Program-made: the position numbers and the translations under genes
In this document: positions 51,971 through 58,509 of the stretch, piece by piece
How positions within the stretch are numbered: position 1 is the stretch's first letter
Layout of the letters: every line of letters starts with the position of its first letter
NCBI RefSeq assembly: GCF_000312425.1
Contig: NZ_HE997181.1
Span: 3,315,044 to 3,379,043, forward strand
Origin: Reyranella massiliensis 521
GTDB taxonomy: Bacteria; Pseudomonadota; Alphaproteobacteria; Reyranellales; Reyranellaceae
DNA: 64,000 bases
Direction of reading: 5' to 3'
The notes under the pieces: model-generated
Seen by the model: the letters and a program-made list of their open reading frames with translations, nothing else
What the model was told of the DNA's origin: nothing
Databases searched by the model: none

Positions 51971-54043
51971 ATGGCCGAACTCAAGACCGAGACCATCCCT
52001 GGGGGCAGACCAGGTAGCGGCGCGCACCGCGTGGTGGCGCTGTGCGGGCCGTATCTCTCGGGCAAGACCAGCCTGCTCGAGAGCATCCTCTTCGCTACGG
52101 GAGCCATCGGCCGGCGCGGTTCGACTCGTGCGGGCACTTCCATCGGCGACGGCTCCCCCGAGGCTCGCAAGCGCGGCATGGGTACCGAGATCAACATGGC
52201 CTCGGTCGACTATCTGGGCGACCAGTGGACCTTCCTCGACGTGCCGGGTTCTATCGAATTCCAGCACGATGCCTTCACGGCCCTTGCCGTGTGCGACGCC
52301 GTCGTCCTCGTCTGCGAGCCCTCGCCCGAACGGGTCGTGGCCCTGACGCCGCTGCTGAAATACATCGAGGACCGTCACCTTCCCCACATCATCTTCATCA
52401 ACAAGATCGATTCTGCCGACGTCCGCGTGCGCGACATGCTCGCAGCGCTGCAAGCCATCTCGACGCGCAAGCTCGTGCTGCGCCAGGTACCGATTCGCCG
52501 GTCGACTGCCGATGGTGGCGAAGAGACGGTAGGCTATGTCGATCTCGTGAGCGAACGCGCCTATCGCTACAAGTCGAGCGGTGCCTCCGATCTGATCGAG
52601 ATGCCGGCTGAGATTCTGCCGCGCGAAAGCGAGGCGCGCCGCGAGATGCTGGAAACGCTGTCGGAATTCGACGACACGCTGCTCGAACAGCTCATCGAGG
52701 ACGTGGCGCCCGAGAAGTCGCTGATCTACCGCGACCTGCACGAGGAATTCGGCTCCGATCAGATCTCGCCCGTCCTGCTGGGCGCCGGCGATCGCGAGAA
52801 CGGTGTGCGCCGGCTCTTGAAAGCACTGCGTCACGACACCCCTTTCGTCGATGTGACGGCTAAGCGTCGGGCTTTGCCGTCGAACGGGGTCGCCATGGCG
52901 GAATGCTTCAAGGTCCTGCACCAGAGCCATGCCGGCAAGCTCTCGCTCTGTCGCGTCTGGTCGGGCGCGCTCACCGAGGGGCAGTCGCTGGGCGGCCAGC
53001 GGATCGGCACTTTGCTGCGGCCTTTCGGACAGCGCCTCGACAAGACGACGGAAGCGAAGGCCGGCGAGATCGTGGCGCTGGCCAAGGTCGAGGCGATCTC
53101 GGCCGGGCAGACACTGTCGGCGGGCGGCGTCGCTGCGTCGGCCGACTTCCCGACGGCCGATCCTCCGGTCTTCGCCCTGTCGCTCGCCGCCAAGAACCGC
53201 AACGACGAGGTCAAGCTCTCGGGGGCGCTGCACAAGATCGTCGAGGAGGATCCCTCGCTCTCCTTCGAGGCGCGCGGCGAGACTCACGAGCTGCTGATCA
53301 AGGGTCAGGGCGAAATGCACCTCAAGGTCGCCGTCGACAAGCTCGCCGGCCGCTACAACGTCGCCGTCGAAACGACGGCGCCGCGCGTTGCCTATCGCGA
53401 AACCATCCAGGCCGGCGCGCAGCAGCATGCCCGCTACAAGCGCCAGACCGGCGGCCACGGCCAGTTCGCCGACATCAAGATCGAGATCAAGCCGCTGCCG
53501 CGCGGCTCGGGCTTTCGCTTCGTCGACAAGATCGTGGGCGGTGTCGTGCCGCGTAACTTCATCCCTGCGGTCGAGGCCGGGCTGACCGAGTATCTGAAGG
53601 AGGGACCGCTCGGCCAGCCGGTGGTCGATCTCGAAGTGACGCTGTTCGACGGCCAGTATCATTCGGTCGACAGCTCCGAAATGTCGTTCAAGATGGCCGC
53701 GCGTATCGCCATGAGCGAGGCCATGCCCAAGTGCAAGCCCGTGCTGTTGGAACCGATCCTCAAAGTCACGGTCGCCGGGCCGAGCGAGTCGACGCCGCGG
53801 CTGCAGCGGCTGATTTCCGGACGGCGCGGCCAGCTCCTCGGCTACGACACCCGGCCAGGGTGGAGCGGTTGGGACGAAGTTTCGGCGTTGATGCCCGAAG
53901 CGGAGATCGCCGACATGATCGTCGAGATCCGGTCGGTCACCCAGGGCGTCGGGAGCTTCCGTACCGAGTTCGACCACCTGCAGGAGCTGGTCGGCCGGAC
54001 AGCCGAGCGCATCGTCGAGGAGAGCAAGAAGCGCGCGGCATGA
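51971..54043 (+). CDS. Elongation factor G-like GTPase (EF-G paralogue)
   Basis: Translation-factor-family GTPase, 690 residues with the full five-domain EF-G layout. Motifs are the P-loop GPYLSGKT (26-33), G3 as DVPG (90-93), G4 as NKID (144-147), and domain IV with TGGHGQFADIKIEIKPL. The G3 motif is followed by Ser-Ile-Glu-Phe instead of His-x-Asp-Phe, so the catalytic histidine of EF-G is missing. This divergent paralogue is found beside normal EF-G in alphaproteobacteria; its role is unknown. It is probably not the main translocase, since that gene normally sits with rpsL, rpsG and tuf. Confidence 0.9.
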   Translation: MAELKTETIPGGRPGSGAHRVVALCGPYLSGKTSLLESILFATGAIGRRGSTRAGTSIGDGSPEARKRGMGTEINMASVDYLGDQWTFLDVPGSIEFQHDAFTALAVCDAVVLVCEPSPERVVALTPLLKYIEDRHLPHIIFINKIDSADVRVRDMLAALQAISTRKLVLRQVPIRRSTADGGEETVGYVDLVSERAYRYKSSGASDLIEMPAEILPRESEARREMLETLSEFDDTLLEQLIEDVAPEKSLIYRDLHEEFGSDQISPVLLGAGDRENGVRRLLKALRHDTPFVDVTAKRRALPSNGVAMAECFKVLHQSHAGKLSLCRVWSGALTEGQSLGGQRIGTLLRPFGQRLDKTTEAKAGEIVALAKVEAISAGQTLSAGGVAASADFPTADPPVFALSLAAKNRNDEVKLSGALHKIVEEDPSLSFEARGETHELLIKGQGEMHLKVAVDKLAGRYNVAVETTAPRVAYRETIQAGAQQHARYKRQTGGHGQFADIKIEIKPLPRGSGFRFVDKIVGGVVPRNFIPAVEAGLTEYLKEGPLGQPVVDLEVTLFDGQYHSVDSSEMSFKMAARIAMSEAMPKCKPVLLEPILKVTVAGPSESTPRLQRLISGRRGQLLGYDTRPGWSGWDEVSALMPEAEIADMIVEIRSVTQGVGSFRTEFDHLQELVGRTAERIVEESKKRAA

Positions 54044-54153
54044 GACGCTGACGCCATCACAAGCGGGTGAAGCCGTCCTCCGGCGGCTTCACCAAAGGTC
54101 CCAGGCCACCCATAGTTCTCCCGTGTGTAAGCGTCCGAGAGGAGAACTTTCCA

Positions 54154-54588
54154 ATGTTCAACAGACGGTCTCTGATGGCGGGCGGCCTGGCGATGGCCGC
54201 AGTGTCGTCACTGATCCGCGTCGCGAATGCCCAGTCTGGGCGTCCGACGCTGGTGTTCGTCGGCCACGAGCTTTGAGGCGGCTGCAAGATCTGGCGTGCC
54301 CAGTCCGAGCCTGATTTCCTCAAGTCCGACGCCTTCAAGAAACTCGACTATCAAGTCGTTCACCCGGCCAATGCCGACCTCATCATGGTCGAGCAAAGCT
54401 GGCCTGCCGCGGCGCGCCCTGTCCGAGAGGCATTCCTGGCAAGCGACGAAGGCAAGAGCCGGCCAAACGCCACCCCGCGCTTCATTCTCTACAAGGACGG
54501 CAAGATCCTCCTGACCGTGACCGGCAACGCCGGCTGGAAGGACAAGATGTGGCCCGCCCTTCAGGAAGTGACGGGCACGAAAGCCTGA
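54154..54588 (+). CDS. Tat-exported thioredoxin-like protein with in-frame TGA (candidate selenoprotein or recent pseudogene)
   Basis: From ATG 54154 (GAGAGGAGA upstream) the frame encodes a Tat signal peptide (NRRSLMAGGLAMAA, cleavage after VANA) and then VFVGHEL, followed by TGA at 54274-54276, then Gly-Gly-Cys-Lys-Ile-Trp. The frame is open and well coded to 54588, with GC-rich third positions. The whole product aligns with the paralogue just downstream, where the TGA matches Ser43 and Cys44 matches Cys46. If read as selenocysteine the motif is Sec41-Gly-Gly-Cys44, a thioredoxin-type redox pair. If read as stop, the gene is broken at codon 41. Which is true cannot be decided from this window. 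Confidence 0.6.
54277..54311 (+). promoter_or_regulatory. Possible bacterial SECIS-like hairpin after the TGA
   Basis: Folded by hand, the RNA directly after the TGA can pair GGC (54277-54279) with GCC (54309-54311), GG with CC inside it, and CTGG (54291-54294) with CCAG (54300-54303) around the loop CGTGC. The loop has G then U and lies 19-23 bases after the TGA, within the range known for bacterial SECIS elements. Pairing is short and interrupted, so this is only suggestive. Confidence 0.3.
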
Positions 54589-54602
54589 TTCGGCTGTATA
54601 AC

Positions 54603-54628
54603 CTCCCCGGGAAGCCTTTCTCGGGGAG
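54603..54628 (+). promoter_or_regulatory. Hairpin that would cover the ribosome binding site of the next gene
   Basis: CTCCCCG (54603-54609) pairs with CGGGGAG (54622-54628). The right arm contains GGGGAG, the only good Shine-Dalgarno for the ATG at 54638. It has no T-run, so it is more likely a translational switch or an mRNA spacer than a terminator. Confidence 0.4.
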
Positions 54629-54637
54629 AAGTAGTTG

Positions 54638-55078
54638 ATGTTGACGAGACGCAAGCTGGTCGCGGGTGGAGCAATACTCGCGGGTGTGGCGCCGCTCGCG
54701 CGTGCCGCCTCCGCACAACAGGCCACCGGCAAGCCGATCCTGATCTTCGCCGGCGACGAAACGTCCGAAGCCTGCAAGGTCTGGCGCACGCAGTGGGAAC
54801 CCCTCTTCAAGCAAGCGCCGGTCTTCCAGAAGCTCGACTACCGGGTGGTCTTTACCCCGACGCCCGCCCTGCTGCTAAAGCCGGCAAGCTGGCCATCGGA
54901 CCTGCGCTGGGTGCTCGATGCCTTCCTGATGAGCCAGGTCGGCGTGGAACAGGGTGCCGAGACGCCGCGTTTCTTCCTTATCCAGAGCGGGCAGATCACG
55001 ATGACCGCGGTCGGCAACAATTCCTGGCGCGACATCGTGTGGCCGACCCTGCTGGATGTGACCAACTCAAAGCCGTAG
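54638..55078 (+). CDS. Tat-exported thioredoxin-like protein (paralogue)
   Basis: 146 residues from ATG 54638 (a TTG one codon earlier is possible). The twin-arginine signal peptide is TRRKLVAGGAILAG with cleavage near AASA. The mature part begins ILIFAGDETSEACKVWRTQWEPLF, with a single Cys46 and Ser43 at the position where the upstream paralogue has TGA. The ending ETPRFFLIQSGQITMTAVGNNSW contains the cis-proline-like TPRF typical of thioredoxin folds. It is clearly a duplicate of the gene at 54154. A periplasmic redox or binding role is inferred. Confidence 0.75.
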   Translation: MLTRRKLVAGGAILAGVAPLARAASAQQATGKPILIFAGDETSEACKVWRTQWEPLFKQAPVFQKLDYRVVFTPTPALLLKPASWPSDLRWVLDAFLMSQVGVEQGAETPRFFLIQSGQITMTAVGNNSWRDIVWPTLLDVTNSKP

Positions 55079-55107
55079 ACTTCAGGAAGCAAGCCTGGAG
55101 GCTCTCG

Positions 55108-55620
55108 ATGGCCAACGACCTCTTCCGCCGCCAGCTCGGCGCCTATGCGTCGGTCCATCGCGACTGGCGCAACAAGGCAACGCATTTCGTCGGCATCCCC
55201 GTCATCGTCTTCTCGCTGCTGCTGATCCTGTCCCTGTGGCGCTTCGAGCTGGGCGGCCGTGAATGGACACTCTCGCTCGCCATCGCGATCCTCGCCGTGC
55301 TGGGCTGGATGGCGCTGGACCTCGGCGTCGGCATTCTTATGGGCATCATCATGGCGCCCGCCTGGTATGCCGCGGAAGCGTTCGCCGGCGCACTGGGTTC
55401 GCCGTCGGCCGTGTGGACGGCTTTCGCCGTTCTGTTCGTTGGCGGTTGGGTGTTGCAGTTCCTCGGCCACCACTATGAAGGCAAGCGACCGGCGTTGATC
55501 GACAACATCTTCCAGGGTTTCATCGGGCCGATGTTCCTGGTGGCCGAAACGCTGGTGGTACTGGGACAGCGCAATGATCTCGCAGAGGCCATGGGAGAAG
55601 GTAACGTCACGGCGCGGTGA
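55108..55620 (+). CDS. Mpo1-like (DUF962) membrane protein
   Basis: Four-helix membrane protein of the yeast Mpo1/YGL010W family, whose members are iron-dependent dioxygenases in alpha-oxidation of 2-hydroxy fatty acids. 170 residues from ATG 55108, with CTGGAGG upstream. The conserved histidines are seen in VHRDWRNKATHFVGIP and QFLGHHYEGKRPALIDNIFQ, which also carry the family motif. Between them lie alternating hydrophobic helices. It lies between the thioredoxin-like genes and msrP in one direction. Confidence 0.87.
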   Translation: MANDLFRRQLGAYASVHRDWRNKATHFVGIPVIVFSLLLILSLWRFELGGREWTLSLAIAILAVLGWMALDLGVGILMGIIMAPAWYAAEAFAGALGSPSAVWTAFAVLFVGGWVLQFLGHHYEGKRPALIDNIFQGFIGPMFLVAETLVVLGQRNDLAEAMGEGNVTAR

Positions 55621-55700
55621 GCAGGGTTGATTTGCGGCGCGCCTGTCTCGCGGCCATGACTGGGCAGTACGCGTGACGGAGCGACTCAGGAGTAGGACGA

Positions 55701-56663
55701 ATGTTGATCAAGCGCAGACGAGGCTGGGAACTGCCGGAAGCCGCGGCGACGTCCGAGAGCCGCTATCTGCAGCGCCGCGAACTGGTGCGTTCCATGGGCC
55801 TCGGCGCTGCGGCACTGGCATTGCCGGGCACGGCTTTCGCGCAGGGCAAGGCGGCCGATCCGTCGGCCAGCCTCTATCCGGCGAAGCGCAACGACAAGTA
55901 CGGCGTGCCGACGCCGATGACGGCCGAGAAGCAGGCCACGACCTACAACAACTTCTACGAGTTCGGCACCGACAAGAGCATCTTGCGGGACGCGCAGAAG
56001 CTCGAAGTACGGCCCTGGACGATCAAGGTCGGTGGCATGGTCGAGAAGCCGTTCGAGATCGGCATCGACGATCTCCTGGCCAAGGTGCAGCTCGAGGAGC
56101 GTGTCTATCGCCATCGCTGCGTCGAAACCTGGTCGATGATCGTGCCATGGAGCGGCTTCCCCGTGCGCTCGCTGGTCGAGGTCTGCAAGCCGCTCAGCAG
56201 CGCCAAGTTCATCGTCATGAAGACGCTCAGCAATCCGTCGGTCATGCACGAGCAGCGCGACCTGCTCTATCCCTGGCCCTACACCGAAGGCCTGGCGATG
56301 GACGAGGCCATGAACGACCTCGCCTTCATCGCGACAGGCCTCTACGGCAAGCCGATCCACAAGCAGAATGGCGCCCCGCTGCGCCTCGTGGCGCCGTGGA
56401 AGTACGGCTTCAAGAACGTGAAGTCGATCGTCAGCGTCGAGTTCACCGACAAGAAGCCCGTCTCGTTCTGGGAGAAGCTGCAGTCCAGCGAGTACGGCTT
56501 CTGGGCGAACGTGAACCCGCAGGTCCCGCATCCGCGCTGGAGCCAGGCCACCGAGAAGCCGCTCGGCAGCAGCGAGCGCATCCCGACCCTGCTCTACAAC
56601 GGCTACGCGGAGTTCGTGGCCGGCCTCTACGCCGACCGCAAGGCGGAAAAGCTCTTCATGTAG
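55701..56663 (+). CDS. msrP: Periplasmic methionine sulfoxide reductase catalytic subunit MsrP (YedY)
   Basis: Molybdopterin enzyme that reduces methionine sulfoxide in exported proteins. 320 residues from ATG 55701 with AGGAG upstream. The Tat signal is LQRRELVRSMGLGAAALALPG. The Mo-binding cysteine is Cys140 in YRHRCVETWSMIVPWSGF, and LVAPWKYGFKNVKSI is the typical pterin-side motif. The haem-binding membrane partner MsrQ (YedZ), which usually supplies electrons, is not next to it in this window. The two thioredoxin-like proteins upstream could be related to its electron supply. Confidence 0.95.
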   Translation: MLIKRRRGWELPEAAATSESRYLQRRELVRSMGLGAAALALPGTAFAQGKAADPSASLYPAKRNDKYGVPTPMTAEKQATTYNNFYEFGTDKSILRDAQKLEVRPWTIKVGGMVEKPFEIGIDDLLAKVQLEERVYRHRCVETWSMIVPWSGFPVRSLVEVCKPLSSAKFIVMKTLSNPSVMHEQRDLLYPWPYTEGLAMDEAMNDLAFIATGLYGKPIHKQNGAPLRLVAPWKYGFKNVKSIVSVEFTDKKPVSFWEKLQSSEYGFWANVNPQVPHPRWSQATEKPLGSSERIPTLLYNGYAEFVAGLYADRKAEKLFM

Positions 56664-56757
56664 CCACCTCCCCGGGCGTGAGCGTTACCCTCGCCTTTGC
56701 CTCGGCGTGCCGGCCCGGTAAAACGGAGATCGAGCCGTCAGGGCTGGTGGAGGAAAC

Positions 56758-57729
56758 GTGAAAATCAATCGTCGTTCGACCCTCGCCGGTGCAGCCGCAC
56801 TGGCGACCGCGCCATTTGCAAAAGCGGCTTTCGCCCAGGCGTTTCCCAGCAAGCCGATCAAGATCGTCGTGCCGTTCGCGGCCGGTAGTGCCACCGATCT
56901 CACGGCGCGTGGGCTCGGCGCCAAGCTGCAGGACATCCTCAAGCAGCCGGTCGTGATCGACAACAAGCCCGGCGCCAGCGGCCAGCTCGGCGCCTCTGCC
57001 GTCGCGACCGCCCCGGCCGACGGCTACACGCTGCTGATGGGCACCAACACCACGAACGCCGCCAACGGCGCGCTGTTCAAGAAGCTCAGCTACGACATCG
57101 AGAAGGACTTCGCGCCGATCATGCGCTGCGTAATGGGCGTCAACGCGCTGGTCGTGAACAACGACCTGCCGGTGAAGACTGTTGCCGAGCTGATCGACTA
57201 TGCCAAGAAGAATCCCGGCAAGCTCAACTACGCCGAGGCCAGCGCCTCGCAACGCCTCTCCGGCGAGATGTTCAACAAGCTGGCCGGCGTGAAGATTGAG
57301 CGCGTGCCCTACAAGGCGAGCCCGCAGGCGCTGGGCGATGTCGCCGCCGGTCAGGTGCAGGTCATGTTCCCCGACCTGCCGCAGGCGCTGACGCAGATCG
57401 AGGCCGGCCGCGTACGCGGCCTGGCCACCACCGGCCCCAAGCGCACCTCGGTCACGCCCAATCTCCCGGCGATCGCCGAGACCGTGCCGGGCTATTCGTT
57501 GGTCTATTGGCTGGCCGTCTTCGCGCCGGCTGCTACGCCCAAGGACGTGCAGAAGGCTCTGGCCGATGCCATCGCCGAGGCGCTGAAGGATCCTGCCACG
57601 GCCAAGGCCATGACTCAGGGCCGCATGGAGATAGCGCCGCTGCCGCTCGACCAGTTCGCCGACTACGTGAAGAGCGAGACGGCCTGGTGGACCAAGGAGA
57701 TCAAGGCGGCAGGGATCGAGCCAGAGTAA
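56758..57729 (+). CDS. Bug/TctC-family tripartite tricarboxylate transporter binding protein
   Basis: Periplasmic solute-binding protein of the Bug family, usually binding organic acids. 323 residues from a GTG at 56758 directly after GGAGGAAAC. The signal peptide (RRSTLAGAAALATAPFAKAAFAQ) has a twin arginine. The family core is FPSKPIKIVVPFAAGSATDLTAR, then VVIDNKPGASGQLGASAVA and DGYTLLMGTNTT. As is common for Bug proteins, no TctA/TctB membrane genes are near. It precedes acyl-CoA catabolism genes, hinting at an aromatic or branched acid ligand. Confidence 0.95.
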   Translation: MKINRRSTLAGAAALATAPFAKAAFAQAFPSKPIKIVVPFAAGSATDLTARGLGAKLQDILKQPVVIDNKPGASGQLGASAVATAPADGYTLLMGTNTTNAANGALFKKLSYDIEKDFAPIMRCVMGVNALVVNNDLPVKTVAELIDYAKKNPGKLNYAEASASQRLSGEMFNKLAGVKIERVPYKASPQALGDVAAGQVQVMFPDLPQALTQIEAGRVRGLATTGPKRTSVTPNLPAIAETVPGYSLVYWLAVFAPAATPKDVQKALADAIAEALKDPATAKAMTQGRMEIAPLPLDQFADYVKSETAWWTKEIKAAGIEPE

Positions 57730-57747
57730 CGGGCCGGAGTGAACGTC

Positions 57748-58509
57748 ATGAGCAAGGTCATCATCGACAAGAACGGCCCGGTCAAAACCATCTGGATGAA
57801 CCGGCCGGAAAAGCGCAACGCTCTCGACAGCGAGTTGCTGCAGGCCATGATCGAAGCGTTGCGTGCGCCGGTGGCACCTGAGGACCGCGTCGTCGTGATC
57901 CGCGGCAAGGGCGATGTGTTCTGCGCCGGCCTCGACATGGCCGAGCGTCGCGAGACGATTGGCTCGGGCAGCGCCAGTGGCATTGAGGTCATGCTGCGCG
58001 CCATCGAACTCTGCCCGTTGCCTGTCGTGGCCGTCGTGCAGGGCGACGCTATCGCCGGCGGCAACGAACTGGCGCTGCATTGCGACCTGGTCGTGGCGAG
58101 CCAGAAGGCGCGCTTCGGCATGTCGCTGGCGCAGGTCGGGCTCGCGCCCAACTGGTTCCTGGCCAAGAAGCTGATGGAAGTGCTGGGCCCGGTCACGACC
58201 CGCGAGATGCTGCTGCTGGGCGATCCCCTGCCCTCGACCAAGCTGCACGCGCTGGGATTGATCGCCCGCTGCGTCCCAGCCGCCGAACTCGAAGCCGAGG
58301 CGTCGAAAGTGATCGACCGGCTGGCCGCCAATGCGCCGCTGTCGCTGAAAGCCATGAAGGCGCTGACGGTAAAGCAGCTCGAGTTCCGCGACGGCATCAA
58401 GCATGACGATGTCGATGCGCTGGTCCAGGCGGCGATGAAGAGCCAGGACGCGCAGGAAGGCATGAAGGCCAGGCTCGAGAAGCGCACCGCGAAGTTCCAG
58501 GGCCACTAG
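57748..58509 (+). CDS. Enoyl-CoA hydratase/isomerase family protein
   Basis: Crotonase-fold enzyme acting on an acyl-CoA, 253 residues from ATG 57748 with GGAG upstream (a GTG at 57739 is less likely). The CoA-binding and oxyanion regions are NRPEKRNALDSELLQAM, GKGDVFCAGLDMAE and VVQGDAIAGGNELALHCDLVVAS. At the places of the two catalytic glutamates of hydratases I see Glu in GNELALH but not a clear second one, so isomerase, hydrolase or lyase activity is possible. It lies in a row with acyl-CoA dehydrogenase and CoA-transferase genes. Confidence 0.9.
   Translation: MSKVIIDKNGPVKTIWMNRPEKRNALDSELLQAMIEALRAPVAPEDRVVVIRGKGDVFCAGLDMAERRETIGSGSASGIEVMLRAIELCPLPVVAVVQGDAIAGGNELALHCDLVVASQKARFGMSLAQVGLAPNWFLAKKLMEVLGPVTTREMLLLGDPLPSTKLHALGLIARCVPAAELEAEASKVIDRLAANAPLSLKAMKALTVKQLEFRDGIKHDDVDALVQAAMKSQDAQEGMKARLEKRTAKFQGH

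Follow-up and report, generated by a model that had tools for sequence, protein, structure and literature searches.

The question that this locus raises is whether a TGA codon lying inside the reading frame of an exported thioredoxin-like gene of Reyranella massiliensis 521 is the scar of a broken gene or a codon for selenocysteine (Sec). The gene is found in a stretch of 64,000 nucleotides, here called the window, for which an initial annotation had proposed a candidate selenoprotein, with a recent nonsense mutation or a sequencing error as its main alternative. From comparison of the gene with its homologues, together with the Sec machinery of the genome, the conservation of the TGA and the selected frame behind it, we conclude that the window gene very probably encodes an exported thioredoxin-fold selenoprotein whose in-frame UGA is recoded as Sec.

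The gene occupies positions 54154..54588 of the forward strand, on which all other window features named below lie as well, and its predicted product of 144 residues carries Sec as residue 41 in the motif UGGC, according to the sequence and its homologues. A Shine-Dalgarno-like AGGAG (54140..54144) can be read 9 bases 5' of the ATG, and the beginning of the protein (54154..54231) is an N-terminal export signal with an RR pair, probably of the Tat type, to which the Pfam model TAT_signal matched weakly, with E 0.11 for the window protein and a best E of 0.0093 among 6 of 19 relatives. In our reading, this signal probably ends ..VANA/QS, with the mature domain starting from about Gln27, and the selenoprotein would go to the periplasm. 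Codon 41 is the TGA at 54274..54276, read here as Sec on the evidence of the sequence and the homologues, and it is followed by Gly-Gly-Cys, thus giving the Sec-x-x-Cys layout first pointed out in the initial annotation. Also in agreement with that annotation, coding continues past the TGA without decay, given that 103 further codons stay open until a second TGA (54586-54588) closes the frame, that third-position GC is 0.80 upstream and 0.81 downstream of the in-frame TGA, and that codons +10 to +94 after it are under purifying selection (pN 0.21, pS 0.52). The scan of 53950-57800 for a sigma-70 promoter found none.

The genome that holds the window (G000, 5.79 Mb in one contig) contains all four genes that had been proposed as the first thing to look for, namely selA, selB, selC and selD. 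The tRNA-Sec scored 75.4 bits against a gathering threshold of 47 and was also called as tRNA-Sec with anticodon TCA by ARAGORN, while SelB, SelA, and SelD scored 455, 556, and 288 bits, respectively. The selC/selB/selA/fdh stretch is located about 41-52 kb downstream of the window end, and it includes, on the reverse strand and clustered with other fdh genes, selA, selB and selC, an fdhA gene with an in-frame TGA (L099 183-3287; about 3427682-3430786 of the contig G000:C1). The frame of this FdhA, which scored 1444.5 bits to TIGR01553, becomes continuous once a single TGA, at UHGP, is translated as Sec; it is an ordinary FdhA, yet it provides internal evidence of Sec decoding in the window genome. 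In the survey of 61 relatives, SelB was above its cut-off in 36 of the 37 genomes of the same genus. The exception (G019), which has the TGA gene and no SelB above the cut-off, is 89% complete in 240 contigs, and the missing SelB is perhaps an assembly gap.

When the homologues were aligned, the TGA column proved to be conserved, with Cys in some relatives. All 30 public homologous loci carry TGA at the Sec column, and these loci were retrieved with a Cys-bearing query that would, if anything, favour Cys homologues. Within the same bacterial family, 68 of 75 genomes have a TGA-bearing gene of the UGGC type; this count includes one genome (G017) in which contig ends truncate the gene, and it is not additive with the 30 of 30, since the public loci and the family genomes overlap. 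For 58 distinct TGA genes we examined every base, the remaining rows being known by their stop count alone. Across 128 distinct family rows, distant ones included, the Sec column holds Sec in 65, Ser in 37, Cys in 24, Arg in 1, Asn in 1 and Trp in none; the Cys rows are mostly distant and include the homologues L150/L078 (one gene, CGFC) and L158 (CGQC). Seven of the 75 genomes have no TGA gene of the UGGC type: one (G001) has a Cys gene, two (G021, G447) have the Ser paralogue only, and four (G033, G448, G420, G424) have distant relatives only; G001, G021, and G033, the three of these covered by the SelB survey, keep SelB despite this. In wider draws, in which the best 10 candidates per genome were scored, at least 11 of 385 genomes at class level matched the broad profile, at least 5 of them with TGA, these 5 all in the same bacterial family, and at least 2 of 398 genomes at phylum level matched the A1 profile. 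A tblastn search of plasmids with the window protein gave no match.

In bacterial SECIS elements, SelB together with Sec-tRNA-Sec recognises a hairpin located after the UGA. Just past the UGA of the window gene, we found the apical SECIS-like hairpin CUGG(54291-54294)-CGUGC(54295-54299)-CCAG(54300-54303), spanning 54291..54303, whose GU-containing loop lies 19-23 bases after the TGA, exactly as described at the outset. The DNA of the 58 distinct TGA genes is near-invariant from the TGA through the tenth codon, synonymous sites included, and this block (54274..54303) overlaps the putative SECIS. In the 29 of these 58 sequences that were used for the comparison, the synonymous difference across 85 nine-codon windows is smallest in the first one past the TGA, 0.047 versus a median of 0.53. 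This minimum right after the TGA, together with the retention of TGA in 30 of 30 homologues, makes the pattern more than chance. The loop Arg codon and the next two codons, CGT GCC CAG, are identical in all 58 TGA genes, and this codon choice is apparently fixed by the RNA element within the coding sequence; CGT is the loop Arg codon in 58/58 TGA genes versus 1/30 Ser paralogues, and it accounts for 41 of the 459 other Arg codons of the same TGA genes. The four-pair stem can form in 57/58 TGA genes versus 8/30 Ser paralogues, and stem and CGT occur together in none of the 30 Ser paralogues. The single TGA gene short of one stem pair (L090) has Arg for Trp. These hairpin and codon counts are not independent trials, because the TGA-gene rows were picked by amino-acid pattern and are related by descent.

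The hairpin, with its G/U apical loop, is likewise decayed in the two close Cys homologues, where L158 reads TGG CGG GCG CAG, without the CGU loop and one of the four pairs, and L150 reads TGG CGC GCG CAA, without the loop and two pairs. Support for the hairpin comes from conservation and from slid controls (76.7% of its cells paired in place versus 52.5% in the best slide). Covariation fails against shuffles, with a score of 0.093 that 293 of 500 shuffles equalled or passed; the paired fraction itself was as high in 404 of 500 shuffles. Shuffled versions of the 69 nt that surround the TGA fold just as well as the real sequence (z +0.92), and Rfam gave no SECIS match, only one sub-threshold chance hit. 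The FdhA of the same genome resembles the window gene in its in-frame UGA followed by a hairpin with a GU loop, but it is a molybdoenzyme and an unrelated protein, and its loop is GUCU on a longer stem.

With this evidence at hand, the other readings of the TGA can be weighed. That it arose by a recent nonsense mutation or a sequencing error from TGC, leaving a pseudogene, is suggested by the single change that separates the two codons and by the TGC-bearing Cys homologues that do exist; however, the TGA recurs in 30/30 loci and 68/75 genomes with an intact and selected frame behind it, and its presence in genomes assembled independently of one another excludes a sequencing error, so that the main alternative of the initial annotation is refuted by conservation and retains practically no probability. 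It is also very improbable that the UGA is read through with another amino acid, for instance Trp, without SelB: Sec at residue 41 is a prediction from sequence, which leaves room for such a reading, but the column is occupied by Sec, Ser, Cys, one Arg and one Asn and never by Trp, the genome has the full Sec machinery, TGA members retain the stem with its CGT loop whereas 30 Ser paralogues and the two close Cys relatives do not, and TGA serves as the terminal stop in 16 of the 58 TGA genes. This use of TGA as a terminal stop, in the window gene as well as in those 16 relatives, also led us to reject a code change in which TGA would be an amino acid throughout.

A UGA followed by a hairpin could, of course, regulate by selenium supply, in which case termination would be the normal outcome and the short product or a regulated readthrough would be what matters. 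We give this programmed termination very little credence, considering that a 40-residue product would be little beyond the signal peptide and that the codons past the UGA are under purifying selection.

In the AlphaFold model of the window protein (m102013c0877f, built with 31 sequences; mean pLDDT 78, pTM 0.71), strands and helices follow one another much as in thioredoxins. Residue 41 immediately precedes helix 42-50 and Pro108 precedes strand 110-114, and the predicted structure is thus a thioredoxin fold whose active site lies where helix 1 begins and in which a Pro stands ahead of the following strand. In VIA-align, the first match was SoxS (3dml/3d4t; Z 8.8, rmsd 2.9, 91 aligned residues, 20% identity), with ordinary thioredoxins within 1 Z of it (8.0-8.4), and the best 50 rows span Z 7.8 to 8.8 and are nearly all titled thioredoxin; Foldseek gave a best E of 1e-3 with a TM of about 0.5. 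SoxS, a periplasmic thioredoxin of Paracoccus pantotrophus, has the thioredoxin fold in common with the window protein as a top structural match tied with ordinary thioredoxins. SoxS has Cys rather than Sec.

Libraries of sequence models hardly touch this protein. No NCBIfam model matches it at E up to 1, and no Pfam cut-off is reached by family members; TIGR01295 (the PedC/BrcD disulfide isomerase) is touched by 8 of 31 members with a best E of 0.03, and NF041199 by one of eight UGPC-type members with E 0.15. Among PDB sequences, the A1 profile found nothing below E 0.24 and the A3 profile found weak thioredoxin-fold matches with a best E of 0.01, SoxS being absent among the 28 sequences listed for it. 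Annotation often mistakes selenoprotein genes for truncated ones, and since no model in the Pfam and NCBIfam libraries covers the UGGC gene, automatic pipelines are expected to miss it. The CxxC paralogues of the same bacterial family (DCRPC, DCPPC etc.) differ from the window protein in having Cys-x-x-Cys in place of Sec-x-x-Cys and no TGA; the three compared are 24-27% identical to it, and they share C44, W47, W83, PRF 108-110, G124, and W128, which are invariant in the 19 rows of A3.

Thioredoxins with Sec and thioredoxin-like selenoproteins, all with a UxxC motif, were tabulated by model and motif in a 2026 review and include Trx PF00085, the thiol:disulfide interchange protein PF13098, SaoT NF040730, HUIPC NF047660, and GOS_C NF045500 (PMC13188914). 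The window protein has UxxC and a thioredoxin-type domain in common with these but matches none of the family models, and the UGGC family is not among the entries of that table considered here (PMC13188914). The literature search found no title or abstract opening describing a UGGC selenoprotein family. We therefore suggest that the UGGC selenothioredoxin-like group is a new selenoprotein family, although a groundwater survey cited in PMC13188914 might list it. Two relatives (L018, L025) are themselves titled as groundwater genomes.

The neighbourhood of the gene is well conserved. Upstream lies an EF-G-like translation factor (NF009379; 51971..54043), and downstream are a tandem paralogue (54638..55078), an Mpo1-like protein (PF06127; 55108..55620), and msrP (55701..56663; 418.8 bits, cut-off 207), encoding the catalytic subunit of the periplasmic methionine-sulfoxide reductase. 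By tblastn at 1e-10, the EF-G-like gene is upstream in 29 and MsrP downstream in 28 of the 30 public loci, with a separate Ser paralogue in 22; the Mpo1-like gene stands in between in 21 of the 30. In these counts, one locus (L035) ends before the genes concerned and another (L046) is located elsewhere. Of 8 further loci, 6 have MsrP, and L105 and L153 have neither MsrP nor EF-G within 1.5 kb flanks; the L153 copy has a metallo-beta-lactamase/rhodanese gene close by, and the flanks of L105 yielded no identified neighbour.

Two copies sit in a different company. In L046 (JAUXWH010000310.1), the TGA gene is placed among SorA-like, SorB-like, SoxX, cytochrome c and BigR-like genes, and in L087 (genome G008), a UAAC copy stands by a SorA-like gene, a rhodanese and a TauE gene; the two SorA-like proteins are 82% identical. 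The names SorA, SorB, and BigR are assigned below the curated model cut-offs and SoxX above; SorA models also touch the window MsrP, and MsrP and the SorA-like proteins share the molybdopterin-enzyme family. The L046 contig is titled Bradyrhizobium, whereas L087 comes from a genome of the window's own genus, and L046 is perhaps a misbinned contig or a transferred cluster. The setting shared with SoxS, by soxX and a sorA-like gene, applies to the L046 copy only, as the window copy lies outside any sox cluster and has neither sox nor sor genes next to it. All identified settings of the UGGC type, leaving L105 and the rows without flanks outside the count, are of sulfur or methionine-sulfoxide chemistry.

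From the fold and the export signal, the natural reading of the predicted protein is a periplasmic Sec-Cys thiol/sulfur oxidoreductase. In the mechanism that we propose, SelB with Sec-tRNA-Sec would recognise the CUGG-CGUGC-CCAG hairpin past the UGA, as at other bacterial SECIS elements, and the protein would be exported to the periplasm, where Sec41 would attack and Cys44 resolve, giving a Sec-x-x-Cys cycle located where helix 1 begins and close to the Pro of TPRF. Electrons would possibly arrive via a DsbD-type transporter, given that one such gene (DsbD_TM) is encoded elsewhere in the genome, and, as the least certain step, the protein might take part in periplasmic sulfur chemistry in a SoxS-like role, by reducing either oxidised sulfur species or the thiols of proteins. 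The partner and the substrate are deduced from the gene neighbours only. There is a substantial chance, though somewhat short of even, that the selenoprotein serves MsrP or general periplasmic thiol repair rather than sulfur-oxidation chemistry: MsrP adjoins it in 28/30 public loci, and the genome has, besides the DsbD-type gene, an MsrQ-like stretch far from msrP (85.9 bits for the piece tested, cut-off 130). Against this stand the two extra copies by SorA-like genes, one with SoxX and the other with rhodanese and TauE, and also the first place of SoxS in the fold comparison, albeit within 1 Z of ordinary thioredoxins. The msrP and sulfite-dehydrogenase-like neighbours offer a testable link between selenium and periplasmic sulfur or methionine chemistry.

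Regarding its history, the tandem paralogue at 54638..55078 has Ser in place of Sec (SEAC), as had been noticed at first sight, and by sequence comparison does not keep the CGT loop. A second subfamily, UGPC/UDPC, comprises 10 distinct sequences (L081-L086, L160, L168, L182, L183), all with the CGU loop at the same distance and with changed outer pairs; identity to the window protein is 26-33% in the six that were compared. It is rare (10 hits in 8 of 75 genomes) and was not found in the window genome; one member (L081) lies near a gene of the MbnB/TglH/ChrH family (PF05114). In a quick tree of 128 rows and 142 columns, whose root was not inferred and in which 52 of 125 inner branches are open, the Ser paralogues fall together as a single group of 36 rows (support 95). 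The two Cys rows share a 7-row set with 5 Sec rows (support 97), nested within the UGGC group, and the UGPC rows are grouped (98) together with the very long branch L170. This fits with Sec being older within the UGGC group and changing later to Cys and, via duplication, to Ser.

We propose, quite tentatively, that the UGGC and UGPC types are sister subfamilies of an undescribed exported selenothioredoxin forming a selenium-dependent branch of periplasmic sulfur metabolism in Reyranella-type bacteria, with Sec ancestral in UGGC and replaced both by Cys, the SECIS decaying as well, and by Ser in the tandem duplicate. It would work with sulfite-oxidase-type molybdoenzymes, MsrP at the main locus and SorA-like proteins at the others, and the Ser duplicate may be a partner without an attacking group of its own. 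The gene adds a family that most genomes of one bacterial family carry and in which Sec has been replaced naturally by Cys and by Ser, with a matched SECIS decay; these natural replacements make it well suited to studying what a periplasmic thioredoxin fold gains from Sec.

Some individual copies deserve mention. In genome G452, the EF-G/msrP locus holds a Cys copy (CGQC; L158 1504-1887) with an in-frame TAG, and the Sec copy is elsewhere in the same genome (L153), which has the look of a Cys form in decay and a Sec form that has moved. Ser occupies both active-site positions, with neither Sec nor Cys, in L170 1501-1938 (G001:C49; SPSS) and in L140, the paralogue of G018 (SEQS). Finally, a CxxC paralogue of the window genome (L117, G000:C1:112348-112735) is split over two frames, by a frameshift or a sequence error, while its relatives have it in one frame.
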